Source of the DNA: Desulfobacteraceae bacterium
GTDB taxonomy: Bacteria; Desulfobacterota; Desulfobacteria; Desulfobacterales; Desulfosarcinaceae
DNA length: 64,000 nt
Reading direction: 5' to 3'
NCBI GenBank assembly: GCA_013003715.1
Contig: JABDIN010000030.1
Span: 1-64,000, forward strand
The position numbers and the translations under genes were made by a program. Every line of letters starts with the position of its first letter. Position 1 is the first letter of the stretch. This document shows positions 2,405-56,231 of the stretch, piece after piece. Under the pieces are notes generated by a model. The model was not told where the DNA came from. It did no database searches and saw nothing but the letters and a program-made list of their open reading frames with translations.

Positions 2405-2899
2405 ATGGCAAAAAGCCCTCACCCGGTTCATGAAGACATCACCCCGGAGATGTGGACGGGCATCGATCGGGTCATCGCTGAACACAAATCGGTATCCGGT
2501 GCTATCATCACCGTTTTACGGGAGTGCCAGGATATTGCCGGCTACCTTCCCGTGGAATTGCTGGATTATATTGCAAAAGGCCTGAATCTGCCGTCAAGTG
2601 AGGTGTTTGGGGTGGCATCCTTTTATTCACTTTTCTCATTGGTGCCGAAAGGCCGCCACACCATCAAGCTCTGCCTAGGTACGGCATGTTATGTCAAGGG
2701 GATCAAAGAGGTAATGAGCCGTGTCACCAATACCTTCAATCTTGAAGAGGGCCAGGTCACCGAAGACAAACGGTTCTCCCTGGAGGGGGTGCGATGCCTG
2801 GGCGCATGCGGTCTGGCGCCGGTGATGGTGGTCGGCCAGGACACCCATGGCGATGTGAGCCCGGATAAGATCCTCGGCATCCTGGACAATTACACCTAA
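2405..2899 (+). CDS. NuoE/HndA-like [2Fe-2S] subunit
   Basis: A 164-aa thioredoxin-fold [2Fe-2S] protein of the NuoE family, which passes electrons between the NuoF-type flavin subunit and partners. The helical N-terminus contains the family's ITVLRECQDIAGYLP and VFGVASFYSLFSLVPKG. The cluster ligands are the C-x4-C of LCLGTACYVKG and the C-x3-C of RCLGACGLAPVM. AAGGAG lies well placed before ATG 2405. It is the first gene of an operon with a DRTGG protein, a NuoF-like flavoprotein, an RnfB/GltD fusion and an RseC protein. A TTGACA at 2312-2317 could be the -35 of its promoter, but the matching -10 is poor. The complex I membrane arm genes are absent, so this is not complex I. Confidence 0.9.
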   Translation: MAKSPHPVHEDITPEMWTGIDRVIAEHKSVSGAIITVLRECQDIAGYLPVELLDYIAKGLNLPSSEVFGVASFYSLFSLVPKGRHTIKLCLGTACYVKGIKEVMSRVTNTFNLEEGQVTEDKRFSLEGVRCLGACGLAPVMVVGQDTHGDVSPDKILGILDNYT

Positions 2900-2966
2900 G
2901 GATAGTGACGATATACGACCCGCGTTTAATTGAGTTCCCAATGCCAATGCAGGTTACGGAAAAACA

Positions 2967-3320
2967 ATGAAAATATCCGAAGTCCAATCGATATTAAAGG
3001 CAAACGTGCTCTGCGGAGAAGACCAATTGGATAAGATCGTGGTCGCCGCCGGCGCTGCAGACCTGATGGACGATGTGCTCGCGGCAGCGGCCAAGGGATG
3101 CGTCCTGCTGACCGGTGTTACCACGGATCATGTCATCCGCACCGCGAAGATCGTTGGCGTTGGGGCGATAGTCATTGTCAGGGGAAAAGAGCCGCCTGAA
3201 GAATTTATCAATATGGCGAAAAGCTATGACATACCGTGTCTGTTGAGCAAATATTCGCTTTTTGTGGCCTGCGGCAGGCTTTACATGAACGGTATACGGG
3301 GATTGGACGGCTCCTGGTAA
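2967..3320 (+). CDS. DRTGG-domain protein
   Basis: A 117-aa stand-alone DRTGG domain, a small alpha/beta fold of unknown ligand found in CBS/PTA-type regulators and, as a single-domain protein, in operons for NADH-linked hydrogenases and formate dehydrogenases. Visible features are the KGCVLLTGVTTDHVIRTA segment at about residues 44-61, the hydrophobic IVGVGAIVIVRGK strand, and the C-terminal PCLLSKYSLFVACGRLY. It sits between the NuoE-like and NuoF-like genes, 19 bases before the latter, so it is certainly cotranscribed. A regulatory or assembly role for the flavoprotein module is inferred from this recurrent position. No catalytic residues are evident. Confidence 0.8.
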   Translation: MKISEVQSILKANVLCGEDQLDKIVVAAGAADLMDDVLAAAAKGCVLLTGVTTDHVIRTAKIVGVGAIVIVRGKEPPEEFINMAKSYDIPCLLSKYSLFVACGRLYMNGIRGLDGSW

Positions 3321-3339
3321 CGGATCAAAGAGAGGGATT

Positions 3340-5187: not shown

Positions 5188-5264
5188 TATCCCGGGATCG
5201 GGAACGGCCTGCTCGCAGCCTGAGTGATGTCGCGATCCTCTTTGCCTAACAGGAGCCAAGCAAC

Positions 5265-7340: not shown

Positions 7341-7383
7341 ATGAAAGGCGGGGACATTTTCCATAGCGGAATAATCGAAAACC

Positions 7384-7860
7384 ATGGCCACTGAAGAAGG
7401 TATCGTTATTAAACCCGGGCGTTTAGACGGGTCTACCATGTGGGTCAGGACGACTCGTTCAAGCGCATGCAAGGCATGTTCTGCGCGCAATTCCTGCAAA
7501 CCGGAAGAGAACACCGAAGAGATGGAAGTGGAAGCCGTCAATGCCGCCAATGCCGTTGTGGGTGACCGAATCGTGCTCAGTTTTAAAACCACATCCCTCT
7601 TGAAAGCCACCTTTTTATTATATATATTTCCGGTACTGTGCATGATCGGTGGGGCATTCATCGGGCAGATGCTGGCTGAGATGAACGATTACAATGCCTC
7701 GATCGGATCAGCGGTGACCGCATTCCTCTTTTTCGGACTATCGTTCCGTTATATCCGGGTGAAAGGGAACAAATTAGCCGAGCATGCGGATTACAAACCC
7801 CGGATCACAAGGATTATGCACAAGGTGTCGTCAAAACCACCGATCTCTTCAGGCGCATAA
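7384..7860 (+). CDS. RseC/MucC-family membrane protein
   Basis: A 158-aa protein of the RseC/MucC (SoxR-reducing system) family. The N-terminal half has three clustered Cys (ACKACSARNSC near residues 29-39), followed by a small beta-rich region. Two membrane segments follow at about 76-98 and 104-122, then a basic tail. RseC proteins are often encoded with Rnf/Rsx genes and help the Rsx complex keep SoxR reduced in enteric bacteria. Here it ends the NuoEF-RnfB/GltD operon, 43 bases after the fusion gene, which ties that operon to Rnf-type membrane chemistry. The Shine-Dalgarno is weak. Confidence 0.8.
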   Translation: MATEEGIVIKPGRLDGSTMWVRTTRSSACKACSARNSCKPEENTEEMEVEAVNAANAVVGDRIVLSFKTTSLLKATFLLYIFPVLCMIGGAFIGQMLAEMNDYNASIGSAVTAFLFFGLSFRYIRVKGNKLAEHADYKPRITRIMHKVSSKPPISSGA

Positions 7861-42656: not shown

Positions 42657-43247
42657 ATGGGGAACAATAAATTTCACATCACGTTTTCACTGCCGGAAAC
42701 CTCCAGGTCCGAATTGCTCGGCAAACAATCCGTGCGTGCCACTTTCAAACTGACTGAAAAAGCCATCGAAACCTTGAGCGTGGTGTCGATTCAATTGGGG
42801 GTTAAACAAAAATCCTTGTTCGATCATCTCATTGACGACTTGAGCGCGTTGGAAATGATCGCCAAAGATGTGGAGCCGTCCGGCTTCCAGCAGCTCAACC
42901 GGGTCCAGAAAACCTTTGTCCTCAGCAGAAAGACATTGTCATCCCTCGAAAAAGCGTCCCGTATCTTTGATGCGCCACGGGATGCGCTGGTGGAATATTC
43001 CATCCAGCGCCTGCGGCCGATTATCGAACAGGAAAGAAAAAAGCATGAGAAACGCAAAATGGTATTGGAAAAACTAACCACCCATCTTCAAGGCGGAGAG
43101 CAGCTTCTCGCGGAAGCCTGGAATATCCTGGGTGAAACTGATCCGTTAACCGTGCGCATCGCATCGGTGATCGCTTCGTACAAAAGCGCACACGATCAAA
43201 TCAGCAGCCATATCGAAAAAAGCAGGTGCATCGAGCAGTTCGAGTAA
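42657..43247 (+). CDS. Hypothetical protein, helical
   Basis: A 196-aa protein that I do not recognise. It is mostly predicted helix. Two similar segments, RATFKLTEKAIETLSVVSIQLG (near 25) and KTFVLSRKTLSSLEKASRIF (near 85), look like two copies of a ribbon-helix-helix-style unit. A Lys/Arg-rich coiled stretch EQERKKHEKRKMVLEKL follows near 130. AGGAG lies 7 bases before ATG 42657. There is no signal peptide or membrane segment. It stands alone between the RsbW-like gene and the cytochrome/Rnf operon. Confidence 0.75.
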   Translation: MGNNKFHITFSLPETSRSELLGKQSVRATFKLTEKAIETLSVVSIQLGVKQKSLFDHLIDDLSALEMIAKDVEPSGFQQLNRVQKTFVLSRKTLSSLEKASRIFDAPRDALVEYSIQRLRPIIEQERKKHEKRKMVLEKLTTHLQGGEQLLAEAWNILGETDPLTVRIASVIASYKSAHDQISSHIEKSRCIEQFE

Positions 43248-43437
43248 CCGTTATCCGGTTCACACCGCCTGTGATTTCCCATGAATCCAACCGACCTGGC
43301 CACCCGGTTTTCAATGCGCCCCCCGATCAACCCGCCGCGAATAAAAAACTTGAAAGCCGACTCGCATTATGGTAGTCGGACCTTTGGTTTAACTACGCCC
43401 GCACCTTCAACCCACTAGTGTAGATGAGGATTGTTCG

Positions 43438-43887
43438 ATGACGACAAAGAAACAGCTGAAACTTGCTGTCCTGGTGGCAATACATTTGCTGCTGATCGGT
43501 ATTGTGTGTTATGCGGCCTTCCCGGTAAAAGCGCCTGATGAACCCATCAGGATCATGCTCGAAAACAAGGGGGGCAAGGTCCTTTTTGACCACCAAACCC
43601 ACACCGCAGCCGATGGTTATGGTATCTCCTGTGACGATTGCCATCATCACGGAGAAGAAGACGAAGATGATAAACGGGCATGCAGATACTGCCACCAGGA
43701 GCCTCCCGAAGGCCAGGCCTATTCCGAAAACTGCCTGGAATGCCATGACGAAGAAGATATCGATGAAGATTTTGAAGAAATCGGCATAAAAAAAGCATTC
43801 CATCAGCAATGTGCCGGATGCCACGAGGAGTTTGAGGCCGGCCCTCTTACGAATGATTGTTCAAAGTGTCATGTTCTTTTGAATTGA
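43438..43887 (+). CDS. Membrane-anchored pentahaem c-type cytochrome (cytochrome c3 family)
   Basis: A 149-aa cytochrome with an N-terminal hydrophobic anchor or signal (residues 10-28) and five CxxCH haem sites: CDDCH, CRYCH, CLECH, CAGCH and CSKCH. FDHQTHT before the first site supplies His ligands as in class III cytochromes. Acidic patches (EEDEDD, DEEDIDEDFEE) stand between the haems. It is the gene immediately upstream of rnfC with a gap of 54 bases, the same place as the multihaem cytochrome of cytochrome-linked Rnf operons in Methanosarcina and some sulfate reducers. It likely exchanges electrons with the Rnf complex on the periplasmic side. Confidence 0.9.
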   Translation: MTTKKQLKLAVLVAIHLLLIGIVCYAAFPVKAPDEPIRIMLENKGGKVLFDHQTHTAADGYGISCDDCHHHGEEDEDDKRACRYCHQEPPEGQAYSENCLECHDEEDIDEDFEEIGIKKAFHQQCAGCHEEFEAGPLTNDCSKCHVLLN

Positions 43888-43941
43888 CTAGTCCGAAAGC
43901 ATTCATATTAATTCGCTGCAGCATGGATTAAAGGTTGAGTT

Positions 43942-45228
43942 ATGATACAACGACCCTTTTTCAACTTTTCAAAACCCCGATTCGACTACGAACTATTCAC
44001 CAAAGCATTACCCCAACTGGTCCCTGTTCCCCAACCGAAATTCGTCACCCTGCTCATCGACAGTCCATTGGGCAACCGGGATCCGAAATTTATCAAGGTC
44101 GGTGACAGCGTTAAAACCGGTCAGCGGCTTCTGCTGGCGGAAAACGATACAGCCGCCGCGGTATCGACGGTCACCGGTAAGATCGACGCCTTCTCGGAAT
44201 TTGCGGGTAACTATGGCAAAATGTTCACCGCCATCACCATTGCGGTGTCCGGCTCGGAAGAAACGGACGATCAGTTCGCGCAACTCGGCGGTGACCTGTC
44301 CATGGCCGACCTCTCCGCCTTCCTCTCCACAGCCCCGGGGCGGCCGCCATTCGAGCTGCTCATGGATCCGGAAAAAACCATTGAGACGATTGTCATCTAT
44401 GGGGGTGATACGGACGTTCTGATCGGCACCAATCAATACGCGCTTAAAACCCGGACAGGTGAATTGCAAAAGGGTATCTCCGCACTGAAAAAGGCAAGCG
44501 GGATCGAAAACGTCATCCTGGCCGTCCCCGGAGAAAGTTTCCAGAGTTATGACGCCCATTTTAACGCGGACGTCAGAAATGTGCCGGCCGAATATCCATA
44601 CGCCGGCTCGCAAATGATTCTTCATCATCTGCTGCAGAAACCGGCGGCGGACGGGAAAGCACCGGAGGACCACGGCGTCTGTTTTATGCGTGCCGAGGCG
44701 GTGATTTCCATCGGCAGGGCCGTTGCGGACAAGCGGATTCCCCTGGAAAAACTCGTGACCATTGTGGCGAAAAACGGTGAACAGAAGATTGTGTCGGCAA
44801 AAATCGGGACCCTCATGGGAGATGTGCTGAACGCCGTTAATATCACAGTCGACGATGGCGACCGGATCATTCTCGGCGGCCCCATGACCGGATTCGCCAT
44901 CTATACCGAAACACATCCCATAGAGCCCGATACCGATGCCATCATGATACAGGATGCATCGGATATCTCGTTCTCATCCGACTACCCCTGCATCAATTGC
45001 GGGGACTGCATCCGGATCTGCCCCGCAAACATCTCCGTCAACATGTTGGTGCGGTTTCTGGAAGCCGGGCAATATGATGATGCCGTCAACCTTTATGATC
45101 TTTATTCGTGCGTTGATTGCGGACTCTGCAGTTACGTCTGTGTATCCAGAATCCCAATTCTGCAGTATATAAAGCTGGCCAAACATGAACTCAGCCGGAT
45201 TAGCGAAGCGGAGGAAACGAATGTTTAA
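43942..45228 (+). CDS. rnfC: Rnf complex subunit C (divergent)
   Basis: RnfC is normally the cytoplasmic NADH dehydrogenase subunit of the Rnf ion pump. This 428-aa protein keeps the N-terminal barrel-sandwich (VTLLIDSPLGN, FIKVGDSVKTGQRLLL), the SLBB-type ending (TVDDGDRIILGGPMTGFAIY), and two [4Fe-4S] sites (CINCGDCIRICP and CVDCGLCSYVCVSRIP). In the NADH/FMN region, where other RnfC proteins have GLGGAGFPT and NGAECEPYL, it reads APGRPPFELL and IYGGDTDVLIGTNQY. The canonical glycine-rich and acidic motifs are therefore not recognisable. The N-terminal GG-x-HP motif is also missing. Gene order and neighbours leave no doubt that it is RnfC. Confidence 0.92.
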   Translation: MIQRPFFNFSKPRFDYELFTKALPQLVPVPQPKFVTLLIDSPLGNRDPKFIKVGDSVKTGQRLLLAENDTAAAVSTVTGKIDAFSEFAGNYGKMFTAITIAVSGSEETDDQFAQLGGDLSMADLSAFLSTAPGRPPFELLMDPEKTIETIVIYGGDTDVLIGTNQYALKTRTGELQKGISALKKASGIENVILAVPGESFQSYDAHFNADVRNVPAEYPYAGSQMILHHLLQKPAADGKAPEDHGVCFMRAEAVISIGRAVADKRIPLEKLVTIVAKNGEQKIVSAKIGTLMGDVLNAVNITVDDGDRIILGGPMTGFAIYTETHPIEPDTDAIMIQDASDISFSSDYPCINCGDCIRICPANISVNMLVRFLEAGQYDDAVNLYDLYSCVDCGLCSYVCVSRIPILQYIKLAKHELSRISEAEETNV

Positions 45229-46180
45229 ACAGAAAAAATTCATCGTTTCGCATGCCCCCTTTTGGCATATCGGCAGCGGCATCCCCGAACGGAACTACAA
45301 TATGATCATTGCCGCCCTGCCGGCAGTACTCATGGGCTTTACCGTATTCGGTATCCCCGCCGTCGGTGTTATCGCACTGTCTGTCGCCTTTGCCGTGCTC
45401 TGGGAGCTTGCGGTCAATTATGTGTCCAAACGTCCCTATACCGTCGCCGACGGCCATGCCATTTATATCGGGTTGATATTCGGAATGGTCATGCCCGCAA
45501 CCGTTCCCTGGTGGCTGATACTTGTGGGGACCTTTCTGGCCATCGTCATCGGCAAAGAGATATTCGGCGGTATCGGCAGCAATCCGTTCAACGCCGTTGC
45601 CCTGGCCTATGCCATACTACTGGTGTCCTGGGGCATCCACCTGGATTTCAACGCGAAGCTGGCCAACTACACTTTTGATTTTCCGGCAGCCTATCCAATT
45701 GCTGCCTTGCAGGCGTTCGGACCTTCGGCGACGGAACCCTTCAGCCTGCTCGGCATGTTCATGGGGCAACAAGTGGGAGGGATCGGCTCCGTTTGCGGTA
45801 TCGCCATTGTCCTCGGCGGTGTTTATCTGATTCTCAGGGGTTTTATCCGATGGGAAATTTCCGTATCCTTCGTCGTCGGCGTATTTGTCACAGCCTTCTT
45901 GTTTAACGTTTACAATCCGGCTGTCTATGGTGCCCCGCTCTTTCACCTGGTGACCGGTTACACGCTGATCGGGGCGTTTTTTCTGGCCACGGATGACGGT
46001 TCTTCCCCTGTAAATTTCATCCCCATGCTGATATACGGCGCTTTAGGGGGCGTACTGACTGTATTGATACGAAACATTGGATCATACGTGGACGGTGTAT
46101 TTTTTGCCATCCTGCTGATCAATGTCGTGAATCCCGTATTGGACAAGATCCGGCCAAAAGCATTGGGAAAGGTAGCTTAA
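45221..46180 (+). CDS. rnfD: Rnf complex subunit D
   Basis: A 319-aa membrane subunit that carries a covalently bound FMN. About ten hydrophobic segments are visible. The FMN-threonine region is near FGPSATEPFSLLGMF, matching the SGAT-like site of other RnfD proteins. The C-terminal FFLATDDGSSPVNF and YGALGGVLTVLIRNIG are typical. ATG 45221 is chosen: it overlaps the rnfC end by 8 bases and has GGAGG upstream, while the longer frame begins inside rnfC. Confidence 0.93.
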   Translation: MFKQKKFIVSHAPFWHIGSGIPERNYNMIIAALPAVLMGFTVFGIPAVGVIALSVAFAVLWELAVNYVSKRPYTVADGHAIYIGLIFGMVMPATVPWWLILVGTFLAIVIGKEIFGGIGSNPFNAVALAYAILLVSWGIHLDFNAKLANYTFDFPAAYPIAALQAFGPSATEPFSLLGMFMGQQVGGIGSVCGIAIVLGGVYLILRGFIRWEISVSFVVGVFVTAFLFNVYNPAVYGAPLFHLVTGYTLIGAFFLATDDGSSPVNFIPMLIYGALGGVLTVLIRNIGSYVDGVFFAILLINVVNPVLDKIRPKALGKVA

Positions 46181-46181
46181 G

Positions 46182-46775
46182 ATGAACGAAATGTTGAAAA
46201 TGGTGGTTGTTCTTACCGGCCTGAGCTTGGTCTCAGGCGGCGTGCTTTCCTACCTGGAAGGCAGCTTGAAAGAACGCATTGAAAATACGATCCTGGAAAA
46301 AGTTCAGGCACCGACGCTACGGCAACTTTTAGTCGGCAGCGAAAACGATCCGGTGGCGGACAGGTTTAAAATCGGCTCCGGCAAGGATGAGAAAAGTTTT
46401 TTTGTCGGAATTTTCGACGGAGCGCCCAATATAGTGGTTCTCGAGGCTTTTGGAAATGGCTATGGCGATAAAGTCGGACTCATGGTGGCCATCGATGTCA
46501 CTACGGATAAAATAATGAACGTCGGTGTCACCACCCATGCCGAAACCCCCGGAATTGGGGCCAATGCCAAGGATGATCCAGAGTTTGCCGCCTTGTTTGA
46601 AGGTTTACCCGTGGGTGAACCGATCCTTGTTAAAAACGATGGTGGTGAAATCAGTGCCATGAGTGGCGCGACAGTTACATCCAGGGCTGTCTGCGTGGCA
46701 GCGACCAGCGCCACCAAGACTTATGAAGCGCTTAAACCGCAAGTGTTGGAACAGATAAAAGGATTTTCCAAATAG
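46182..46775 (+). CDS. rnfG: Rnf complex subunit G
   Basis: A 197-aa periplasm-facing flavoprotein anchored by one N-terminal membrane helix (residues 5-25). The covalent FMN site is the Thr in SGATVTSRAVCV near residue 162, the S(T)GATxxT pattern. Other family features are GYGDKVGLMVAID, and VTTHAETPGIGA. It begins one base after the rnfD stop. It normally passes electrons toward RnfC or, in cytochrome-linked forms, the multihaem cytochrome. Confidence 0.94.
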   Translation: MNEMLKMVVVLTGLSLVSGGVLSYLEGSLKERIENTILEKVQAPTLRQLLVGSENDPVADRFKIGSGKDEKSFFVGIFDGAPNIVVLEAFGNGYGDKVGLMVAIDVTTDKIMNVGVTTHAETPGIGANAKDDPEFAALFEGLPVGEPILVKNDGGEISAMSGATVTSRAVCVAATSATKTYEALKPQVLEQIKGFSK

Positions 46776-46787
46776 GGAGTCGTTAAC

Positions 46788-47417
46788 ATGGCTAAATCGA
46801 TCGTTCAGGAGTTTACAAAGGGGCTATGGAAAGAGATACCCCCATTCCGGCTGGTGCTCGGCCTGTGCCCGATACTGGGTGTGACAACATCGCTTGAAAA
46901 TGGTTTGGGTATGGGGCTGGCCACAACATTTGTCCTGATTTGCTCCAACTTTCTGGTGTCGCTGCTACGGAAAATGATCCCCTCGAAGGTGAGGATCGCC
47001 TGCTTCATTATCATCATCGCCACATTTGTGATTGTTGTCGAAATCATGATGAAAGCATTTGCATACGATATTTTTCTCAAGCTTGGGGTTTTCATCCCGC
47101 TCATCGTGGTCAACTGCGTGATCCTGGGACGCGCCGAGGCATTTGCGGCGAAAAATGGCATCCTGCCGTCTCTTGCCGATGGATTGGGTATTGGTATCGG
47201 TTTTACGCTTTCATTGGCATCATTGGGCGGTATACGCGAAATCCTCGGGAAAGGGACATTGACGGTGTGGGGGGAACCATTCTTCACCGGTCCCATCTTC
47301 AGTATTGCCGACATCTTTCCTAAATTTGAACCCTTCGGATTTATGGTTCAAGCTCCCGGTGCCTTTGTTGCTCTTGGCTTGATGCTATGTCTTATGAACC
47401 TTATGGAATCCAAATAG
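46788..47417 (+). CDS. rnfE: Rnf complex subunit E
   Basis: A 209-aa integral membrane protein, one of the two pseudo-symmetric subunits (with RnfA) that hold a [2Fe-2S] cluster in the membrane. Family landmarks are LVLGLCPILGVTTS near residue 24, where the Cys is a cluster ligand, VNCVILGRAEAFA near 105 with the second ligand, and GIGFTLSLASLGGIREILG. Six membrane segments are expected. It follows rnfG by 12 bases. Confidence 0.94.
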   Translation: MAKSIVQEFTKGLWKEIPPFRLVLGLCPILGVTTSLENGLGMGLATTFVLICSNFLVSLLRKMIPSKVRIACFIIIIATFVIVVEIMMKAFAYDIFLKLGVFIPLIVVNCVILGRAEAFAAKNGILPSLADGLGIGIGFTLSLASLGGIREILGKGTLTVWGEPFFTGPIFSIADIFPKFEPFGFMVQAPGAFVALGLMLCLMNLMESK

Positions 47418-47430
47418 GAGAAACCAACCA

Positions 47431-48003
47431 ATGGGCTATTTCGAACTGATAATCTCCTGTATTTTCGTCAATAACATACTGCTGGCGCAGTTCCTGGGGA
47501 ACTGCCCGTTCCTTGGCACCTCCAAAAAAATGGAAACGGCGGTGGGTATGTCCATGGCGGTGGTATTTGTCATGGTCATGGCCGGCGTGATTACCTGGGT
47601 CATCTACAACTGGATACTTGTGCCGACAAATCTGACTTATCTCCGGACCATAGCCTTCATCCTGGTCATTGCGTCCCTGGTTCAATTTGTGGAAATGTTC
47701 CTGAAAAAGAGCATACCGGCCCTGTATGCGGGCTTGGGCATTTTCCTGCCGCTGATTACCACGAATTGTGCGGTAATGGGGGCTTGCGTGTTAAATATAG
47801 ACAAAGAATTCAATTTTCTGGAAGCATTGGTCGCCTCATTCGCCTATGCGGTGGGCTTTGGATTAGCGCTCGTACTATTTGCCGGTGTTCGTGAAAAAAC
47901 ATTATTGGCACGCGTGCCGAAACCCTTGCAGGATACATCAATTGCGCTGGTTACCGCCGGTGTGATCTCTTTATCCTTTTTTGCTTTCAAAGGCATGGTA
48001 TAG
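47431..48003 (+). CDS. rnfA: Rnf complex subunit A
   Basis: A 190-aa integral membrane protein, the partner of RnfE. Landmarks are NNILLAQFLGNCPFLGTSKK near residue 14, with the cluster Cys, LGIFLPLITTNCAVMGAC near 98, with the second Cys, and FGLALVLFAGVREK. Six membrane segments are expected. A gap of 13 bases separates it from rnfE; 22 bases follow to rnfB. It is normal in length. Confidence 0.94.
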   Translation: MGYFELIISCIFVNNILLAQFLGNCPFLGTSKKMETAVGMSMAVVFVMVMAGVITWVIYNWILVPTNLTYLRTIAFILVIASLVQFVEMFLKKSIPALYAGLGIFLPLITTNCAVMGACVLNIDKEFNFLEALVASFAYAVGFGLALVLFAGVREKTLLARVPKPLQDTSIALVTAGVISLSFFAFKGMV

Positions 48004-48025
48004 GTTTACCAAGGAGGTAATGATT

Positions 48026-50095
48026 GTGTTAACTGCGGTATTGATAATGCTGGCAATCGGCGCAACCTGCGGTATCGTGTTAAGTGTCGCATCAAAGGTT
48101 TTCTACGTCTGGGAAGATCCCAGAATTGCCGAAATTGAGTATCATATGGCCGGGGCCAACTGCGGTGGGTGCGGTTTTGCCGGGTGTTCCGCCGCGGCTG
48201 TTGCCGTTGTTGCCGGGAAAGCCCAACCCAGTGTCTGTATCGTCGCCGGAGTTGAATCCGCCTTGGGCATTGCCGCCGTAATGGGTGTGGACCCGGGCAG
48301 CGCCGAACCCATCAAATCCATCAACGAGTGCCTGGGCGGTGATCGCGCCGACGACAAGTTCGCCTATAATGGAGTTCAAAGCTGCCGTGCCATGGCGGCC
48401 CTGTTCGGCGGGAAAAGGGTCTGTACCGTCGGTTGCATCGGTTATGGGGATTGCATCAAATCCTGCCAGTTCGACGCCATTGACATGGGCCCCGACGGCT
48501 ATCCGGTGGTCAACGAAATCAAGTGTGTGGGGTGCGGCGCCTGTGAAAAGGCCTGCCCGAAAAACATCATTACCGTGCGTACCATGAGCGAACGTCTCCT
48601 GCATTTCAATGAAGAGGATGATGCCCTGGCGCCCTGCCGCCAGACCTGTCCGGCGGAGATCAATATCCCACAATACATCGCCCAGATCCGTGATGGCGAT
48701 TATGCCGAGGCCGTGAACACTATCCGGGAACGAAATCCGTTGCTCCTGGCTTGCGGCCGTGTCTGTCCCCACCCCTGTGAGGATTATTGCCGAAGAGGCA
48801 TAGAGGATGAACCGGTATCCATCAACCAGCTCAAACGGTTTGCCGCAGACTGGGAGATGAATTCAGGTAAACGGATACCCGTTGCCTGCGCACCGGACAC
48901 CGACAAGAAAATTGCCGTCGTCGGCGGCGGTCCCGCCGGTCTCAGCGCGGCTTTCTTCCTGCGCAGACTGGGCCATTCAGTGACCATTTTCGAGGCCATG
49001 CCCGAGCTGGGCGGCATCGTTCGCTATGGTATTCCTGAGTATCGATGCCCGCAAAAAACATTGGCGTGGGAAATCCAGGGCATCCTGGATTTGGGTATCG
49101 AAGCCCATCTGAATACACGTCTCGGCGTTGATTTTTCCATCGAGTCGCTTCAGGCCGATGGTTTTGACGCCATATTCCTGGGAATAGGGGCGTGGGATGA
49201 CTACAAACTCGGGGTGGACGGTGAAGATCTCGACGGTAGTTACAAGGGTATCCCCTTTCTCTCCAGCGTAGCTGCCGGCAAAGAGGTCAAGGTCGGAAAA
49301 AAAGCGGCGGTAATCGGCGGTGGGAACTCCGCCATCGACTGTGTGCGCACACTAGTGCGGCTTGGTGTGGAAGAGGTCTACATCGTTTACCGGCGAACCC
49401 GGAAGGAGATGCCGGCCAACGAAGTCGAAATCGTGGCTGCCGAACATGAGGGCATCAAATTCCAATTCCTGGCGGCGCCCACACGTGTGGTCGGTGACGA
49501 GAACGGGCGAGTGACCCACCTCGAATATCTACAAATGGAACTCGGAGAACCGGACGCCAGCGGACGGCGTCGGCCCGTACCCATCGAAGGCTCCGAAACC
49601 CTGCTTGAAATTGACAATCTGATCACCGCCATCGGCCAACGGCCCACAGTGGACTTTGTGGAAAAAGAGAAAATATTGGAAAATCTGGGAATTACCCGCT
49701 GGAACACCATTGATAACGATCCGGAAACCCTGCAATCGACGCTGCCGTTTATTTATACCGGCGGCGATTCAGCCACCGGCGCATCTCTTGTGGTCGAAGC
49801 CATCGGCGGCGGCCGCCGTGCTGCACGATCCATTCACCAGTTTTTAACCGGTGAAGAGGTCAAAGGCGCCGAAAAATCCCTCAGAAAACGGCATATACCC
49901 GTTTCTCTATTCACATCAGTTGATGGTGTGGTGCAGAAAAAGCGTACTGAAATGCCTGAGCTGCCGGTTGAAGAGCGTATCCGTTCCATGGTGGAAGTGG
50001 ATTTGGTGATCAGTGAAAAAGATGCCCGGTACGAATCCAACCGCTGCCTCTCCTGCTGCCGTATATGCTACAACAAAGACAAAGAAGCGGCCTGA
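48026..50095 (+). CDS. rnfB: Rnf subunit B fused to GltD/NfnB-like oxidoreductase (copy 2)
   Basis: A 689-aa protein; ordinary RnfB is only about 180-330 aa. Residues 1-25 form the RnfB membrane anchor, Cys46, 49, 54 and 71 bind the RnfB cluster, and Cys133-147 and Cys167-177 form two ferredoxin clusters. From about 200 it continues as a GltD/NfnB-like NADPH:flavin oxidoreductase: CRQTCPAEINIPQYIAQI, CGRVCPHPCEDYC, the FAD fold VVGGGPAGLSAAFF at about 298, the NADPH fold VIGGGNSAIDCVRTL, and YRRTRKEMPA for the NADPH phosphate. It ends CLSCCRIC. GTG 48026 is the likely start: AAGGAGG lies 8 bases upstream, against only 2 for ATG 48020. Confidence 0.9.
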   Translation: MLTAVLIMLAIGATCGIVLSVASKVFYVWEDPRIAEIEYHMAGANCGGCGFAGCSAAAVAVVAGKAQPSVCIVAGVESALGIAAVMGVDPGSAEPIKSINECLGGDRADDKFAYNGVQSCRAMAALFGGKRVCTVGCIGYGDCIKSCQFDAIDMGPDGYPVVNEIKCVGCGACEKACPKNIITVRTMSERLLHFNEEDDALAPCRQTCPAEINIPQYIAQIRDGDYAEAVNTIRERNPLLLACGRVCPHPCEDYCRRGIEDEPVSINQLKRFAADWEMNSGKRIPVACAPDTDKKIAVVGGGPAGLSAAFFLRRLGHSVTIFEAMPELGGIVRYGIPEYRCPQKTLAWEIQGILDLGIEAHLNTRLGVDFSIESLQADGFDAIFLGIGAWDDYKLGVDGEDLDGSYKGIPFLSSVAAGKEVKVGKKAAVIGGGNSAIDCVRTLVRLGVEEVYIVYRRTRKEMPANEVEIVAAEHEGIKFQFLAAPTRVVGDENGRVTHLEYLQMELGEPDASGRRRPVPIEGSETLLEIDNLITAIGQRPTVDFVEKEKILENLGITRWNTIDNDPETLQSTLPFIYTGGDSATGASLVVEAIGGGRRAARSIHQFLTGEEVKGAEKSLRKRHIPVSLFTSVDGVVQKKRTEMPELPVEERIRSMVEVDLVISEKDARYESNRCLSCCRICYNKDKEAA

Positions 50096-50122
50096 TCGGC
50101 AACGGATACCCCACGCATAAAA

Positions 50123-50170
50123 ACGAATCCGGCGTCTTGGCAGCCATAGACCGCCGGATTCGTTTTTTTA
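50123..50170 (+). terminator. Intrinsic terminator of the rnf operon
   Basis: ACGAATCCGGCG pairs perfectly with CGCCGGATTCGT (12 bp) around a 17-base loop, followed by TTTTTTT. It lies about 28 bases after the rnfB stop. On the minus strand it also ends with a short U-tract (TTTTT), so it may also stop transcription from the convergent pseudouridine synthase gene. Confidence 0.85.
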
Positions 50171-51166
50171 TTGAGAGTTCTCCGATGTCAGCGCCCTGAG
50201 CTGTTCGACGACGACTTGCATGTCTTCCGCCAAAGGTGCCTCAAAACGGCAGGGATCACCTGACCGGGGATGACGAAATTCCAGCCGGAACGCATGCAGC
50301 ATCTGCCGCCTCACCTCGTTCAAGGTCGATATCAACCGCCGGGACCCGTCGGACCCGGGTAGCGGTAATTGTTTTTCCCAGCGTCGATGATTGTAAACAC
50401 TGTCCCCTACCACCGGATGGTGCATGGACAGGCAGTGCACGCGTATCTGGTGGGTCCGGCCGGTCTCGATTTTCAATTCCAGAAGTGTAATGCCCGAATA
50501 CCTCTCCCTGACCCGCCATAAGGTGACGGCCACCCGGCTGTGTGCGCCGGACGTTGACATTTTTTTCCGATTCTGCGTGTGTCTGCCGATGGGCAGATTG
50601 ACTTGACCCGACTCCGACCGAGGGTCTCCATGAACCAGGGCAAGATATTTCTTTCCGGTTTCACGGGATTTAAATTGCGCAGCCAGATTCTGATGGGCAC
50701 GATCGTTTTTGGCCACCACCATCACACCCGATGTGTCCTTATCGAGCCGATGGACAATGCCAGGTCTGAGATCGCCACTAATGCCCTGCAAATCGCGGCA
50801 ATGGTAGAGAACCGCATTGACGAGGGTGCCGGAATAATGCCCCGGCGCCGGGTGAACCACCATACCGGCGGCTTTGTTCACCACAAGGATATCGCTGTCT
50901 TCAAACAGGATATCCAGCGGAATGGGTTCCGGATCAAGATCTATGGGACCGGGATCCGGGATCGAACCGGAAATATTATCCCCTTCCTTGACGCGATATC
51001 CCGGCTTTCCAGCATTGCCGTTGACCCGGATATGCCCTTCACGTATCAGCCTGCCGGCAAACGATCGCGAACAGGTTTCAAGCGTGTCGGCCACCACGGC
51101 ATCCAGGCGGATACCCATCGACATTTTATCTATTTTGAAAGTAAAGGTATTGGTCTGCATCATCAT
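50168..51166 (-). CDS. rluD: RluA-family 23S rRNA pseudouridine synthase (RluD-like)
   Basis: A 332-aa pseudouridine synthase with an N-terminal S4 RNA-binding domain (IREGHIRVNGNAGKPGYRVK) and a catalytic domain with HRLDKDTSGVMVVAK, whose Asp is the nucleophile. ILVVNKAAGMVVHPAPGHYSG precedes it, and KYLALVHGDP and GRTHQIRVH follow. RluD makes pseudouridines in helix 69 of 23S rRNA; the RluD assignment among RluA/C/D paralogues is by size and S4 domain. Three ATG codons in a row begin the frame, with no Shine-Dalgarno. The carD gene ends 18 bases upstream, so coupling is likely. Confidence 0.9.
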   Translation of the reverse strand: MMMQTNTFTFKIDKMSMGIRLDAVVADTLETCSRSFAGRLIREGHIRVNGNAGKPGYRVKEGDNISGSIPDPGPIDLDPEPIPLDILFEDSDILVVNKAAGMVVHPAPGHYSGTLVNAVLYHCRDLQGISGDLRPGIVHRLDKDTSGVMVVAKNDRAHQNLAAQFKSRETGKKYLALVHGDPRSESGQVNLPIGRHTQNRKKMSTSGAHSRVAVTLWRVRERYSGITLLELKIETGRTHQIRVHCLSMHHPVVGDSVYNHRRWEKQLPLPGSDGSRRLISTLNEVRRQMLHAFRLEFRHPRSGDPCRFEAPLAEDMQVVVEQLRALTSENSQ

Positions 51167-51184
51167 GCAGTAAGGGGAGGTGTT

Positions 51185-51742
51185 CTATTCAGGTTCGGGT
51201 TCGGGGACGAACAGCGAGTCGATCTCACCGGCAACGGTACCTTCATCGGTGTCTTTTGCAGTGGAAAGCTCTTTGATCAATAGATTTTGAGCGGTGTCGT
51301 ATAGTTTGCGCTCACCAAATGACAGATCCTTGGTCAGTTTAAGAAGGGAAAGGTCCCGGTATACTTCAGCCACTTCAAATAGAGAACCGGTCTTTATTTT
51401 TTCCATATATTCCCGGTAACGCCGGTTCCAGGTCTGGTTATCGATATTGATTTCAGGACGTTCCTTCATCACATCGATAATCTTGGGGATATCTTTCTCA
51501 TTGATGACATCCCGCAACCCCACGGAAGTCACATTCCAGGTCGGGATCATGATGACCATGCCGTTCTCGATGACCTTCATGATATAAAAATCATGCTCTT
51601 CTCCATTTACCACCCGAGTTTCAATTGCCTCGATGCGGCCGACGCCATGTGCGGGATAAACTGCGAGGTCTCCGACCTGAAACTTTTTCTGTTCAACCGC
51701 TTCAGATCCTTCATTGTTGTCACTAACGACTTTATCGGGCAT
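51185..51742 (-). CDS. carD: CarD/CdnL-family RNA polymerase-binding regulator
   Basis: A 185-aa CarD/CdnL protein that binds the RNA polymerase beta subunit and stabilises open complexes at rRNA and other promoters. The N-terminal Tudor-like domain has FQVGDLAVYPAHGVGRIEAI near residue 21. The helical C-terminal domain includes WNRRYREYMEKIKTG and LSFGERKLYDTAQ. The first 15 residues and the acidic tail (EPEPE) are non-conserved. It lies downstream of hppA after a terminator and shares the strand with rluD. Confidence 0.92.
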   Translation of the reverse strand: MPDKVVSDNNEGSEAVEQKKFQVGDLAVYPAHGVGRIEAIETRVVNGEEHDFYIMKVIENGMVIMIPTWNVTSVGLRDVINEKDIPKIIDVMKERPEINIDNQTWNRRYREYMEKIKTGSLFEVAEVYRDLSLLKLTKDLSFGERKLYDTAQNLLIKELSTAKDTDEGTVAGEIDSLFVPEPEPE

Positions 51743-51816
51743 TTCAACACCAGGAACTTCTATTATAGGTAAATGTCACTGAACGGTAACAATATCATTT
51801 GCGCCCTTACTAATCA

Positions 51817-51854
51817 ATAAAAAAAAGGATTGGCACATTTCTGCGCCAATCCTT
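51817..51854 (-). terminator. Intrinsic terminator after hppA
   Basis: Read on the minus strand, AAGGATTGGC pairs with GCCAATCCTT (10 bp) around a 10-base loop, followed by a run of U. It begins about 30 bases after the hppA stop. Confidence 0.85.
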
Positions 51855-51883
51855 ATTCTCAGCTGTACATTATTCTCTGATGA

Positions 51884-53917
51884 CTACATCAAAAATGGTA
51901 CCATCAACAAGGCAACAACATTCAGGATCTTAATCATCGGATTAATGGCGGGACCTGCGGTATCTTTGTAGGGGTCACCTACGGTATCGCCGGTAACCGC
52001 GGCTTTATGGGCATCGCTGCCCTTTCCGCCCAGATGACCGTCTTCGATGTATTTTTTGGCATTGTCCCAGGCCGCGCCACCGGTGGTCATGGACAGCGCG
52101 ACAAACACGCCGGTCACGATGGAACCGATCAACAACCCGCCAAGGGCGACTTTACCGAGAATGAATCCAACCAGAAGCGGTGCGATGACCGGCAGAAGTG
52201 CCGGCACCAGCATCTCCTTGAGGGCAAACTTGGTGACGATATCCACACATGCTCCATAGTCCGGTTTTGCAGTGCCTTCCATAATACCGGGGATTTCCCT
52301 GAACTGACGGCGTACTTCGTCAACAACAGCGCTGCCGGCGTTTCCAACCGCCTTCATGGCGATCGAGGCGAACAGGTAAGGCAACAGGCCGCCGATGAAC
52401 AGACCGATGATGACATTAACGTCGGAAAGATCGAATTTGATGCCTTCTGCGGCGCCATGGATGGTGAATTCCTGAACGTAGGCGGCAAACAGAACCAGGG
52501 CGGCCAGACCGGCGGAGCCGATGGCATATCCCTTGGTTACGGCTTTGGTGGTGTTACCCACGGCATCCAGCGGATCGGTCACGGCGCGGACACTCTCATC
52601 CATTTCGGCCATTTCGGCGATACCACCGGCATTATCGGTGATGGGGCCGTAGGCATCGATGGCGATGACCATACCGGTCATGGACAGCATGGACATGGCG
52701 GCCATGGCGATTCCGTAAAGACCGCCAAATGCGTAGGCCATATAGATGGCCAGGCAGATCACCAGAACCGGTGCGGCGGTGGCCTGCATCGATACGGCAA
52801 GGCCGGAAATGATGTTGGTACCGTGACCGGTGGTTGAAGCTTCGGCAATATTTTTTACCGGGGTGTATATGCCGGTATAATATTCGGTGATGACAACGAT
52901 CACGACCGTAAGCACAAGGCCGATAAGGGTGCAGTAGTAAATTTGCATCGCCGAAATACCGGCAATACCGCCCATGAACTGTTTGCTCGCATAGTAAAAT
53001 GCGATGGCGGCGATGATCGCTGATCCGAACATGCCTTTGTACAGGGCGCCCATGATGTATTCACTTTTGCCCAGGCGAACGAAAAATATGGCGATGATAG
53101 AGGCGATAATGGAGATGGCGCCCAGAATCAACGGGAATTCGACAACCATCGCGTTGTCGGGGTAAAGGAGATGACCGATAAGCATGGCGGCAACAGCGGT
53201 AACCGCATAGGTCTCGAACAGATCGGCTGCCATACCTGCGCAGTCGCCGACATTGTCGCCGACGTTGTCAGCAATGGTTGCCGGATTACGGGGATCATCT
53301 TCCGGGATGCCGGCTTCAACCTTACCCACCAGGTCGGCGCCCACATCGGCACCCTTGGTAAAGATACCGCCACCCAGACGGGCAAAAATGGAAATCAGGC
53401 TGCCGCCGAAGCCGAGGGCTACAAGTGCGATAACCGCATCTTTAGGATCAACACCGAATTTCAGTAAAATAGTGTAGTAACCGGCAACGGAAGTCAGGGC
53501 CAGCCCGGCAACGATCATACCGGTAACGGAACCACCACGGAAAGCCATGGCCAATCCTGCAGCCAGACCTTTTTTAGAGGCTTCAGCAGTACGGACATTG
53601 GCAAGAACGGAAACCCGCATGCCGATGTAACCGGCCAGAAACGAGGCAACCGCGCCGAGTAAGAAGCCAATGGCGGTTTTCGGGGTCATGGCGAAAAATA
53701 TCACCACAAAAATGACGGCACCGGTGATACCCATGCTTTTCATCTGTCGATTCAAATAAGCGATAGCGCCCTCTTTGATGGCGCCGGCAATGGATTGCAT
53801 CTTCTCATTTCCAGCAGGTGCGCCTTTCACGACTGCGGCAAGAATTACTGCAAACAGAACACCGACCACACCCACTAATGTGCAGATTAGCGGTATATTA
53901 TTCAATACAACGTCCAT
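51884..53917 (-). CDS. hppA: Membrane-bound pyrophosphatase (K+-independent type)
   Basis: A 677-aa ion-pumping pyrophosphatase with about 16 membrane helices that couples PPi hydrolysis to H+ export. The PPi/Mg site motifs are visible: [39 protein letters not shown], and the C-terminal [18 protein letters not shown]. The stretch [10 protein letters not shown] has Lys and Thr at the positions that mark K+-independent H+-pumping members; K+-dependent ones usually have Ala and Gly there. ATG 53917 with GGAGG five bases upstream is chosen over 53929. It ends before an intrinsic terminator. It conserves energy from PPi of biosynthesis and sulfate or fatty-acid activation. Confidence 0.95.
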
Positions 53918-53950
53918 TCTGTCCTCCATAATAAGTTAAAAACCTATAAT

Positions 53951-54532
53951 TCATAATTTTCGATTGAAATTGTTCATCCCATCAGCTGCGCCTTTGCAAA
54001 GGATGGTGACTACGGCATCTTTCGCCCTGTCCTGGATAGTGACCAATTCTGTTTTTTCGGCCGTGGAAAAGCCATTCAACACAAAATTGGCGACACCCGT
54101 TTGTGTGTCAGGACGCCCGACACCAATCCGGAGACGAACGAAGTCTCCGCTGCCAACGGCCCCTATGATGGACCGCACACCATTGTGCCCTCCATGTCCT
54201 CCTTTCTCTTTTATTTTTAATCTTCCAAAAGCAAGGTCTATGTCGTCATGAACGATCAACACATCCTCACATAATATCCTGTAATAACTTATTAAATTCT
54301 GTATTGGCGGCCCACTGCGGTTCATAAAGGCCATGGGTTTAGCCAGAATCACCTTCCGGTCCCCCATAACACCACGACCATAGTGGATACCGTTTAAAAC
54401 CTTGTCCAAAGGTATGGAAAAAGCATCGGAAATCGTATCAATCACCATGAAACCGACGTTATGCCGGGTGGCCGAATATTTTTTACCCGGATTGCCCAGT
54501 CCGGAAATGAGCGTAAGCTTTTGTTCCGACAT
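53951..54532 (-). CDS. pth: Peptidyl-tRNA hydrolase
   Basis: Pth frees tRNA from stalled peptidyl-tRNAs. The 193-aa protein has the family signature GLGNPGKKYSATRHNVGF (the catalytic His is in RHN), KPMAFMNRSG, VHDDIDLAFGRLKIKEKGG with the catalytic Asp, GHNGVRSII and FVRLRIGVGRP. It follows rplY by about 60 bases; prs-rplY-pth is a common conserved group. The start ATG 54532 has a weak upstream GGTT, but the N-terminus is family-like. Confidence 0.95.
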   Translation of the reverse strand: MSEQKLTLISGLGNPGKKYSATRHNVGFMVIDTISDAFSIPLDKVLNGIHYGRGVMGDRKVILAKPMAFMNRSGPPIQNLISYYRILCEDVLIVHDDIDLAFGRLKIKEKGGHGGHNGVRSIIGAVGSGDFVRLRIGVGRPDTQTGVANFVLNGFSTAEKTELVTIQDRAKDAVVTILCKGAADGMNNFNRKL

Positions 54533-54564
54533 GTAACCCTTTTATAAAGAGCAAATCGATCCAC

Positions 54565-54584
54565 AAAAAACAGCCGGTCCCGGC
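54565..54584 (-). terminator. Possible terminator between rplY and pth
   Basis: On the minus strand, GCCG-GGAC-CGGC is followed by TGTTTTTT. The stem is short, so read-through into pth is likely. Confidence 0.35.
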
Positions 54585-54594
54585 GTCGGGGGGC

Positions 54595-55266
54595 CTATGC
54601 GTTTTCAGCGGATTTGGTGTCCTCATCTGACTCTTCTTCACCCTCTGCACCTTCTTCGCCCTCTTCGCCCTCTTCAAGTTCTTCCTCTTCGGGCTCTTCC
54701 TCAGCCTTTGGTACAAGGACGGTGAGTACCGTGAAGTTCACATCGTAAGGAATTTCCACGTTGCCTTCCAGTGGGATGTCCTCCACATGAACACTGTCAC
54801 CAATATCCAATTCGGTGACATCAAGGGTTATGGCCTCGGGAATTTCATGGGGCAGGCAAAACACTTCCAGTTCCCGGCGAACGATCTGCAGCGTGCCACC
54901 GGCTTCAACACCCGCGGCGATACCTGTGGTGACCACAGGTACATTCACCTTGATTTTGCTTTCCAGATCCACTTCATAAAGGTCCAGATGGATAAAGCTT
55001 CTGGTCAACGGATGGGTTTGGAATTCCTTGATCATTACCGCTCGGGGCTTGTCATCATTACCATCGATGCTCAATCCAAACAGCGCACGATACGCCGACC
55101 CTTGCTTTAGAACCGCTTCCAGGTCCAACGACGAAATGGTTAACATGGCCGGTTCGGTTTTGGGACCGTATAAAACGGCGGGGATTTGCCCCTGCCGTCG
55201 CATTTGTTTTGCGGGTCCATCCCCTTTGGTGGTCCGCAGCTTCGCATTTAACTTAATTAAATCCAA
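54595..55266 (-). CDS. rplY: Ribosomal protein L25, general stress (Ctc) type
   Basis: A 223-aa L25/TL5/Ctc protein that binds 5S rRNA. The N-terminal L25 domain (1-90) starts with LIKLNAKLRTTKGDGPAKQM and includes IPAVLYGPKTEP; the C-terminal beta domain (95-185) has VPVVTTGIAAGVEAGG and the EITLDVTELDIGDSVHV-like IPEAITLDVTELDIGDSVHV. The last 35 residues are a highly acidic Glu-rich tail (EEEPEEEELEEGEEGEE), longer than usual. It lies between prs and pth. Confidence 0.94.
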   Translation of the reverse strand: MDLIKLNAKLRTTKGDGPAKQMRRQGQIPAVLYGPKTEPAMLTISSLDLEAVLKQGSAYRALFGLSIDGNDDKPRAVMIKEFQTHPLTRSFIHLDLYEVDLESKIKVNVPVVTTGIAAGVEAGGTLQIVRRELEVFCLPHEIPEAITLDVTELDIGDSVHVEDIPLEGNVEIPYDVNFTVLTVLVPKAEEEPEEEELEEGEEGEEGAEGEEESDEDTKSAENA

Positions 55267-55292
55267 GAGTTAGTCCTCCTTGAGACGAATTT

Positions 55293-56231
55293 CTAAATAA
55301 ATAGTGATGTAACTGAATCTCCCTTATAGCTGCGAATTATCGCTTCCCCAACAAGAGGTGAGATCGACAGTGTAACAATCTTGCCGCTCCGGGCGGCAGC
55401 CTCGGATAATGGGATGGTATCTGTGGCGACAAGGGTTTTGATGTCGGAAGATTCGATCCGATCAACGGCGGGGCCCGATAGGACGGGATGCGCGCAACAG
55501 GCATGAACTTCCTTGGCGCCGTGCTCGGCTAAAAATCCCGCCGCTTCAGTCAACGTACCGGCGGTATCGACCATATCATCGAGAATGACAGCAACTTTGC
55601 CCTTCACATCGCCAATAACCGCCATGGCTTTGGCTTTATTGGGTGCTGAACGCCGTTTATCGATGATGGCCAGGCCGGCGGACAATCGTTTTGCGAACGC
55701 TCTGGCACGTTCAACACCACCGGCATCCGGTGAAACAATGACGAGGTTGGAATTAAACTTTTCCTTGATATAGCTGATGAGAACCGGAGCGGCGAAGAGG
55801 TTGTCAACGGGAATGTTGAAAAAACCCTGGATCTGCCCGGTATGAAGATCCATGGTGATTACCCGGTTTGCGCCGGCCGTCGTCAGCAAGTCGGCCACCA
55901 GTTTGGCACTGATGGGAACCCGCGGCGCCACTTTTTTGTCCTGCCTCGCGTATCCATAGTAAGGGATGACCGCGGTGATTCGACGGGCGGATGCCCGCTT
56001 CATCGCGTCAATCATAAGCAATAGTTCAACCAGATTGTTATTGACCGGGTGGCAGGTGGATTGAATGATGAAGACATCCTTGGTACGGACATTCTCGTCA
56101 ATCTCGATCTGAACTTCCCCATCGCTGAACCGGTCGATCTTGGCACCGCCCAGGGAAATATTCAGATATTCACATATTTTTTCCGCAAGTGCCGGATTGG
56201 AATTTCCCGAAAACACAAAAAAATCGCTCAT
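55293..56231 (-). CDS. prs: Ribose-phosphate pyrophosphokinase
   Basis: Prs makes PRPP from ribose 5-phosphate and ATP for nucleotide, histidine and tryptophan synthesis. The 312-aa protein shows [37 protein letters not shown], the ATP-binding [23 protein letters not shown], and the PRPP-binding [19 protein letters not shown]. Length is normal. It is preceded by tRNA-Gln, 36 bases above, and followed by rplY. Confidence 0.96.

Follow-up and report, generated by a model that had tools for sequence, protein, structure and literature searches.

A 64,000-nucleotide stretch of a Desulfobacteraceae genome (positions 1 to 64,000 of contig JABDIN010000030.1, GenBank assembly GCA_013003715.1; hereafter the window) carries an rnf operon whose last gene, at 48026-50095, fuses RnfB to a complete GltD-type flavoprotein. 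On balance, we favor the view that this operon encodes a cytochrome-linked Rnf complex that works in one direction only, a "half-Rnf", and that takes exchangeable RnfB heads. All six subunits, RnfABCDGE, are encoded together, in the order cytochrome (43438), rnfC, rnfD, rnfG, rnfE, rnfA and rnfB-gltD, and all window features described here lie on the plus strand. The source genome (G000) comprises 5.5 Mb in 115 contigs, and the nearest named RnfD, RnfE and RnfA cores are those of Desulfosarcina and other Desulfobacterales.

The rnfB-gltD gene is one uninterrupted open frame of 689 residues that starts with GTG at 48026; an in-frame ATG at 48020 is a possible alternative start, and AAGGAGG lies just 5′. 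Residues 1-190 form the RnfB head, which begins with a helix at residues 2-25 in the AlphaFold model. Pfam places the RnfB iron-sulfur domain (PF04060) at residues 43-72 and a ferredoxin part with two [4Fe-4S] clusters at 137-181; the RnfB [4Fe-4S] motif, GANCGGCGFAGC, lies at 48152-48187. A Fer4_20 domain (residues 202-280), with cysteines at 48629-48790, joins this head to a Pyr_redox_2 domain (residues 295-595, E 9e-29). The latter contains the flavin adenine dinucleotide (FAD) motif GGGPAGL at 300-306 (VVGGGPAGL, 48917-48943) and, for reduced nicotinamide adenine dinucleotide phosphate (NADPH), the motifs GGGNSAID at 431-438 and YRRTRKEMPA at 455-464 (IGGGNSAID ... YRRTRKEMPA, 49313-49417). 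These motifs and the fold are those of a GltD/NfnB-type NADPH flavoprotein, as an earlier, sequence-only reading of the gene had proposed.

Comparison with solved structures gives the same picture. The chains nearest to residues 178-680 are the GltD-type subunits of NfnABC and StnABC and the large subunit of NfnI (NfnI-L), and the AlphaFold model (mean predicted local distance difference test score 83, with a poor linker at 92-136) has structural matches to the same set: NfnABC, StnC and NfnI-L. When aligned, the NfnABC and StnC chains share YRRxxxEMPA. Residues 3-191 are closest to the RnfB subunits of C. tetanomorphum and A. woodii. The head is normal, as first described, but short: it aligns with only the first ~190 residues of the solved RnfB proteins (274 and 333 residues), and the GltD module occupies the position where those proteins run on. 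The NCBIfam rnfB model TIGR01944 is barely passed (71.4 bits, cut-off 68.7), and GltD-type models score up to 485 bits yet stay under their own cut-offs.

Because the best matches are subunits of the bifurcating NfnABC, StnABC and NfnI, the fused FAD might bifurcate electrons from NADPH as in NfnB. We consider this very improbable. No NfnA-like gene adjoins the window operon, and no NfnA/NfnS partner was found among the window open reading frames of 43000-56000, the only part of the genome searched for one. Moreover, the GltD-type FAD of StnABC, on StnC, is the non-bifurcating one (PMC10482914; papers are cited here for the parts available to us).

The remaining operon genes divide into those that keep their known features and those that do not. 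RnfC (43942-45228) retains its fold and scores 185 bits against a cut-off of 246. Its flavin mononucleotide (FMN)/NADH motif GxGGAxFP is deleted and the NGxECEP stretch is altered to YGGDTDV; all eight iron-sulfur cysteines are present in two [4Fe-4S] motifs, CINCGDCIRICP (44989-45024) and CVDCGLCSYVC (45109-45141). The subunit had been called degenerate; its loss is specific. RnfG (46182-46775) passes the RnfG_DVU2794 cut-off and keeps the flavinylation motif SGATVT (46662-46679). RnfA (47431-48003) keeps the cysteine motifs GNCP and TTNCAV, and RnfE (46788-47417) keeps its cluster cysteines and, by hand count on the alignment, the residues opposite A. woodii R67 and E115. The RnfA/E cluster ligands and the RnfE Na+-path residues are therefore both in place. 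The first gene (43438-43887) encodes a small c-type cytochrome with five CxxCH motifs and an N-terminal hydrophobic anchor or signal (Pfam Cytochrom_CIII, 6.8e-12; a TmcA-like c3 match is under its cut-off), a multiheme operon gene as in the cytochrome-linked Rnf of M. acetivorans. No NqrF-type subunit (NADH/FAD/[2Fe-2S]) was found among the open reading frames of the rnf operon.

We next consider how widely these features occur together, using 297 genomes of the phylum. Ninety of them match the fused RnfB at E<=1e-125, a threshold at which weaker fusions would be missed, and most of these matches are GltD proteins lacking an RnfB head. From the places listed, a true fusion is present in 33 genomes: 23 have class N, in which the NADPH motif is intact as in the window operon, 21 have class E, described below, and 11 have both. 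A single scan of genome contigs yielded 80 loci. In all, the loci contain 107 distinct RnfB-plus-GltD proteins, the window's two included, and in 105 of them the RnfB head is in frame with the GltD part, which rules out chance or an assembly artefact as the origin of the fusion; the two exceptions are L039, which is headless, and L137, which is interrupted by a stop. L050, a fusion split on a short contig of G078, was left out of this count. The 78 class N proteins keep GGGNxAxD and YRR, whereas the 29 class E proteins have lost these and, in part, the second FAD motif.

The RnfC model TIGR01945 matches in 110 of the 297 genomes at E<=1e-30. We read every place that scored under 380 bits but only 38 of the 63 above it, so that the canonical rows are a sample. 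We dropped 11 solitary RnfC-like proteins (L233, L234, L237, L252, L254-L256, L258, L260, L261 and L263) and two of Nqr type (L191, L192). Dereplication left 145 RnfC rows, 41 with GxGGAxFP and 104 without. The canonical rows have plain RnfB wherever their own RnfB is visible (39/39; unseen in 2); for L130 and L132, the nearest RnfB is the fused one of a divergent neighbor operon. The motif-less rows comprise 53 with class N, 16 with class E, 21 listed with plain RnfB and 14 with no RnfB in reach (9 of which show rnfA, 8 with some sequence past it). Fusion and motif loss are thus associated, as the sequence-only reading would lead one to expect: all 69 operons with a fused RnfB have an RnfC lacking GxGGAxFP, and a fused RnfB beside its own canonical RnfC was not seen among the 145 rows. 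The association runs one way. After removing three broken or cut fusions (L137, L161, L222) and an operon cut by a contig end (L247), 17 motif-less RnfC remain with complete plain RnfB. These counter-examples rule out strict complementarity of the two subunits, which the earlier account had suggested.

A tree of concatenated RnfD, RnfE and RnfA (133 operons, 706 columns) places 91 operons in one clade with support 1.0, and RnfC lacks the motif in every one of them. This clade contains 53 operons with class N, 15 with class E, 12 with plain RnfB (including the cut L247), 8 with no RnfB in reach and 3 with a broken or cut one. It includes 11 of the 17 plain-RnfB, motif-less operons, among them decaheme-cytochrome operons arranged like the published one of D. 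alaskensis. Six motif-less operons (L248, L249, L257, L259, L266, L267) fall elsewhere in the tree, a placement that points to more than one loss of the RnfC motif.

The clade is also marked by a change in RnfD. FMN is covalently attached at Thr153 of C. tetanomorphum RnfD and Thr156 of A. woodii RnfD, according to the published descriptions available to us. Window RnfD (45185-46180; numbered from the start of its open frame, which overlaps rnfC) has Tyr170 (45692-45694) opposite both residues in alignments to 7zc6_D and 9eri_D, with positions counted by hand. Across the survey, we located this column through the ATPL block and verified it against PDB chains and by pairwise alignment. Threonine occupies it in 36/36 canonical operons and in all six motif-less operons outside the clade. 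Inside the clade, threonine is found in 4/91 by MAFFT, tyrosine being commonest (46), and in 8/91 and 6/91 by pairwise alignment to the two references. A gene with at least three CxxCH motifs lies within 9 kb on the same strand in 73/91 clade operons compared with 0/41 canonical rows. Loss of the RnfC motif, loss of the RnfD FMN anchor and a cytochrome gene therefore go together in the clade, though not in every member.

These results bear on the explanation first offered for the fusion, in which RnfB took over the pyridine-nucleotide site of RnfC and a full circuit couples ferredoxin, NADPH and perhaps cytochrome c through two complementary subunits. The 69/69 association fits such a move, and the Na+-translocating NADH:quinone oxidoreductase (Na+-NQR) provides a precedent: NqrA, a relative of RnfC, has lost its sites, and the NADH site is on NqrF (PMC4014512). 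An NADPH-type site is indeed on RnfB, with no NADH/FMN motif on RnfC, but this is not a swap. Because 17 motif-less RnfC have complete plain RnfB, 11 of them within the clade, loss of the RnfC site does not need the fusion. Because the FMN-bearing threonine of RnfD is lost too, the change is wider than one site. In addition, placing nucleotide and ferredoxin both on RnfB leaves no evident second cytosolic terminus. We regard a relocated site as unlikely; a dismantled return branch combined with a new input head fits better.

For the half-Rnf we infer the following path. NADPH would be oxidized at the FAD of the GltD module on RnfB, where reduced ferredoxin may enter too. Electrons would then reach the RnfA/E [2Fe-2S] cluster by way of the clusters of Fer4_20 and RnfB, and RnfG would accept them at its periplasmic FMN; ion pumping is proposed to be coupled at the RnfA/E cluster. 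The electrons would end at the operon's multiheme cytochrome c or another periplasmic cytochrome, and not at cytosolic NAD, since the RnfD FMN anchor and the RnfC FMN/NADH site needed for their return are gone. The reverse reaction may produce NADPH or ferredoxin. A class N head would bring an NADPH site, and a class E head would adapt the complex to NuoEF (NADH) or to a formate-dehydrogenase-like module. The fusion, its motifs, the operon, the co-occurrences, the core clade and the distinct histories of cores and heads are read directly from sequence, whereas each electron-transfer step, ion pumping, the cytochrome's role as acceptor and the exchange of heads on one core are our inferences.

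This proposal draws on the 69/69 association, the RnfD threonine loss within the clade, the nearby multiheme genes and the head histories and NuoF neighbors described below. Conservation of the pump half supports it too. The window RnfE keeps its cysteines and the residues aligned to R67 and E115, which were the residues mutated in published A. woodii work, and a crude test finds an SGAT-like motif at the RnfG position in 87/91 clade operons (31/36 canonical, 1/6 motif-less outside the clade). We also count in its favor that, in D. alaskensis vesicles, attempts at ion transport coupled to ferredoxin:NAD+ electron transfer failed (PMC4841214).

Several observations weigh against the half-Rnf. 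The crude RnfG test is failed by 4/91 clade operons, by 5/6 motif-less operons outside it and by 5/36 canonical ones, and in 18/91 clade operons no multiheme gene was found within 9 kb on the same strand. The NADPH specificity of the fused module is a prediction from motif and kinship. PMC4215793 and PMC11887813, in the parts we drew on, connect these complexes to the NADH pool, and in D. alaskensis dhcA is almost neutral, although Rnf is needed. FMN could also bind RnfD non-covalently. Finally, the eight RnfC cluster cysteines are invariant in 34/34 aligned RnfC, and window RnfD has not lost the residues opposite the riboflavin ligands N123/D249; the return branch may therefore still conduct electrons in part. 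Separately, locus L264, in a 99% complete genome (G210), has a cytochrome-linked rnf core with no RnfB head over the cut-off, which also counts against the proposal.

The conserved RnfC clusters and RnfD ligands are what one would expect of a different full circuit, in which electrons return via RnfD riboflavin to the RnfC clusters and another cytosolic acceptor, with a cytochrome or free FMN substituting for the RnfD FMN. PMC5109826 does state that a partner of RnfC other than NAD remains to be identified. Set against this circuit is the loss of the RnfD anchor across nearly the whole clade. Moreover, the neighbors of class N genes standing apart from rnf genes are common to near relatives only, in a comparison that included no systematic search for a cytosolic partner gene. 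We judge this circuit doubtful, and return to the half-Rnf.

The window also carries a fused RnfB apart from its rnf operon. A second cluster at 2405-7860, 36 kb from the rnf operon, has the order nuoE-DRTGG-nuoF-rnfB2-rseC. It encodes a NuoE-like [2Fe-2S] protein (2405-2899; PF01257, 5.1e-47), a DRTGG-domain protein (2967-3320; PF07085), a NuoF/HydB-like NADH dehydrogenase subunit with GRGGAGFP and NADEGDPG intact (3340-5187), a second RnfB-GltD fusion (5265-7340) and an RseC/MucC-family protein (7384-7860; PF04246, 5.1e-32). The second fusion is class E: its RnfB head is intact and its NADPH motif is eroded. A NuoF gene lies within 8.5 kb of 14/29 class E genes compared with 0/78 class N genes. 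All 14 NuoF proteins keep NADEGDPG, and L144, L147 and L149 miss the GRGGAGFP pattern we used.

In some organisms class E forms part of the rnf operon. Metagenome-assembled genomes of Spirochaetes and Aminicenantes have the order cytochrome-rnfC-D-G-E-A-rnfB2-nuoE-nuoF, and one of Neomarinimicrobiota has the same rnf-rnfB2-nuoE-nuoF order on a contig that starts within rnfC; in L148, a NuoG/formate-dehydrogenase-like gene intervenes. Other operons are extended differently. At L056:9123-19464, the rnf operon runs on into two further fusions, one that joins a molybdopterin protein (NuoG/formate-dehydrogenase-like) to NuoE and one that joins NuoF to a second GltD module; L060:508-11064 is alike as judged by protein size and match, domains having been scanned in L056 only. 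At L063:11348-14101, a formate-dehydrogenase-like gene directly follows the class E rnfB of an rnf operon. Its frame continues through one TGA, which likely encodes selenocysteine, as in selenocysteine formate dehydrogenases. L061 resembles L063 by its first residues only.

Phylogenies of heads and cores differ. A GltD-domain tree gathers every fusion into a single clade of 108 rows (support 0.999), made up of 98 rows named as fused, five others and the headless L031-L035. The five are L109, L114 and L138, which are fused RnfB whose head starts with AANCG, L137 with its internal stop, and L050, split at a contig end. The same tree unites all 24 class E rows in a clade of their own (support 1.0), whereas the 15 class E cores do not form one (approximately unbiased test, p 0.0015, for a group defined by motif after the first tree was seen). 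Heads and cores therefore have separate histories. In the RnfB-head tree, the window's second RnfB belongs to a 13-row set (96*) with RnfB proteins encoded inside rnf operons (L044, L047, L049, L056, L060). Judged by the RnfB head alone, class E requires two changes, not one, which counts against our proposal.

Eleven genomes (G000, G015, G036, G134, G161, G172, G184, G196, G232, G275, G282) have both N and E beside a single motif-less core, and heads therefore look exchangeable; G000 and G161 additionally hold a canonical Rnf. G184 mirrors the window, with class E in the operon and class N elsewhere. In G254 (L222:11890-12392), the operon's class N rnfB keeps residues 1-77 and 602-689 only, through an internal deletion of 78-601, and rnfCDGEA is intact; the class E fusion beside NuoEF is intact and is the sole RnfB head over the cut-off in that genome.

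In seven genomes, class N stands alone, the sequence retrieved around it containing no rnf gene. Such orphans could mean that the pump receives nothing from the GltD module, which would instead be a ferredoxin:NADP+ reductase carried by RnfB or an extension with a regulatory or structural role. Proteins L031-L035 point the same way: they are ~600-residue relatives of the fusion that have the GltD part but no RnfB membrane head, and plain-RnfB Rnf is seen in three of their five genomes. They look like products of a fission of the fusion. Yet the cysteines of the RnfB and Fer4_20 clusters are invariant (35/35). In six of the seven orphan genomes, the motif-less core shows no rnfB; the sequence visible past rnfA is 0.8 kb (761 bases) in G233, 2.3 kb in G252 and at least 8 kb in the other four. 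The seventh, G184, has class E in its core. A module that does not feed the pump is, in our estimation, improbable.

The half-Rnf may extend well beyond the window. We tentatively suggest, with less confidence than for the window operon, that a clade in Desulfobacterota and in metagenome-assembled genomes of Spirochaetes, Aminicenantes and Poribacteria has only the outward arm (RnfB, RnfA/E, RnfG), ending at cytochrome c, with interchangeable NADPH or NADH/formate-dehydrogenase heads.

Parts of this picture are already in print. PMC5109826 describes the Desulfobacula toluolica type of Rnf (Rnf2), whose RnfB of ~700 residues carries NAD+-binding sites and whose RnfC lacks NADH domains; its rnf2 cluster includes a cytochrome, and most of the proteins were detected. 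PMC11887813 assigns Rnf2 to the Desulfobacteraceae core genome, as constitutive and with RnfB and RnfC unlike those of Rnf1, and PMC4046663 notes a putative cytochrome c adjoining rnf in Desulfotignum. The observation and half of the idea have thus been published. The window operon matches Rnf2 in its large RnfB with nucleotide-binding sites, in an RnfC that lacks NADH domains and in its cytochrome, and, as in D. multivorans, a canonical Rnf1 is encoded in the same genome. That canonical Rnf, with plain RnfB, is on contig C21 (L066), and an Nqr-like cluster is on C104 (L235). The sections of PMC5109826 and PMC11887813 available to us report no RnfD FMN-threonine loss, core clade, one-way association, NADPH-less class with NuoEF/formate dehydrogenase, or head exchange, and PMC11887813, unlike our proposal, has Rnf2 connect the pools of ferredoxin, NADH and NADP. 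In the literature we searched (papers in part, without supplements), we found no description of RnfD threonine loss, of RnfB coupled to NuoEF or formate dehydrogenase, or of head exchange. New here are the core clade with its RnfD FMN-threonine loss, the second, class E RnfB beside NuoEF, and the proposed exchange of heads.

The window operon shares six subunits, the RnfE cysteines and R67/E115 residues, and the RnfG flavin motif with canonical Rnf (A. woodii, C. tetanomorphum, A. vinelandii), which differs in having plain RnfB, RnfC with FMN/NADH, RnfD with covalent FMN and no gene with at least three CxxCH within 9 kb (41/41 rows). In the Rnf of Methanosarcina acetivorans, RnfB is fed by ferredoxin and is not known to carry a GltD module. 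That complex resembles ours in its operon multiheme cytochrome c, in not using NAD(P) and in RnfG as the proposed cytochrome feeder (PMC4023990); it differs in that the genome's RnfC match exceeds the TIGR01945 cut-off, a comparison we ran as a control. Na+-NQR, like the window operon, has an RnfC-type subunit without an NADH site and nucleotide input on the RnfB side, but its input is NqrF rather than an RnfB fusion, and NqrB keeps covalent FMN and reduces ubiquinone (PMC4014512). NQR/RNF-like single-path clusters have only one of the two transmembrane electron paths, along which electrons are proposed to move in one direction to a flavin outside the cytosol; what they retain is a protein of NqrB/RnfD type joined to an NqrF-like domain, whereas the window keeps the RnfB-RnfA/E-RnfG arm (PMC8238504). 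Lastly, NfnB/NfnL and StnC share Fer4_20, the FAD and NADPH fold and YRRxxxEMPA with the window module but sit in soluble transhydrogenases, while the window module is fused to a membrane-anchored RnfB.

If our proposal is correct, one ion-pumping core would take several fuels, and some strains would hold two heads per core. The site of pumping in Rnf and Nqr is disputed: PMC11889175 argues for RnfA/E and cites earlier RnfD/NqrB proposals, and A. woodii work places ion coupling at RnfA/E, with RnfD in electron transfer only. An Rnf that occurs naturally with no FMN anchor on RnfD, yet retains the proposed Na+ residues of RnfE, opens this dispute to a direct test: pumping by Rnf2 would mean that flavin chemistry at RnfD is dispensable. 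The proposal could also explain the failed vesicle experiments (PMC4841214), provided that D. alaskensis RnfC is motif-less like that of L268-L270, which resemble the published D. alaskensis operon (10 CxxCH, order CDGEAB, plain RnfB of ~300 residues). It bears, finally, on the energetics of sulfate reducers, in which Rnf2 is core-genome and constitutive and, in the account of PMC11887813 available to us, is still drawn in the link between ferredoxin and NADH.

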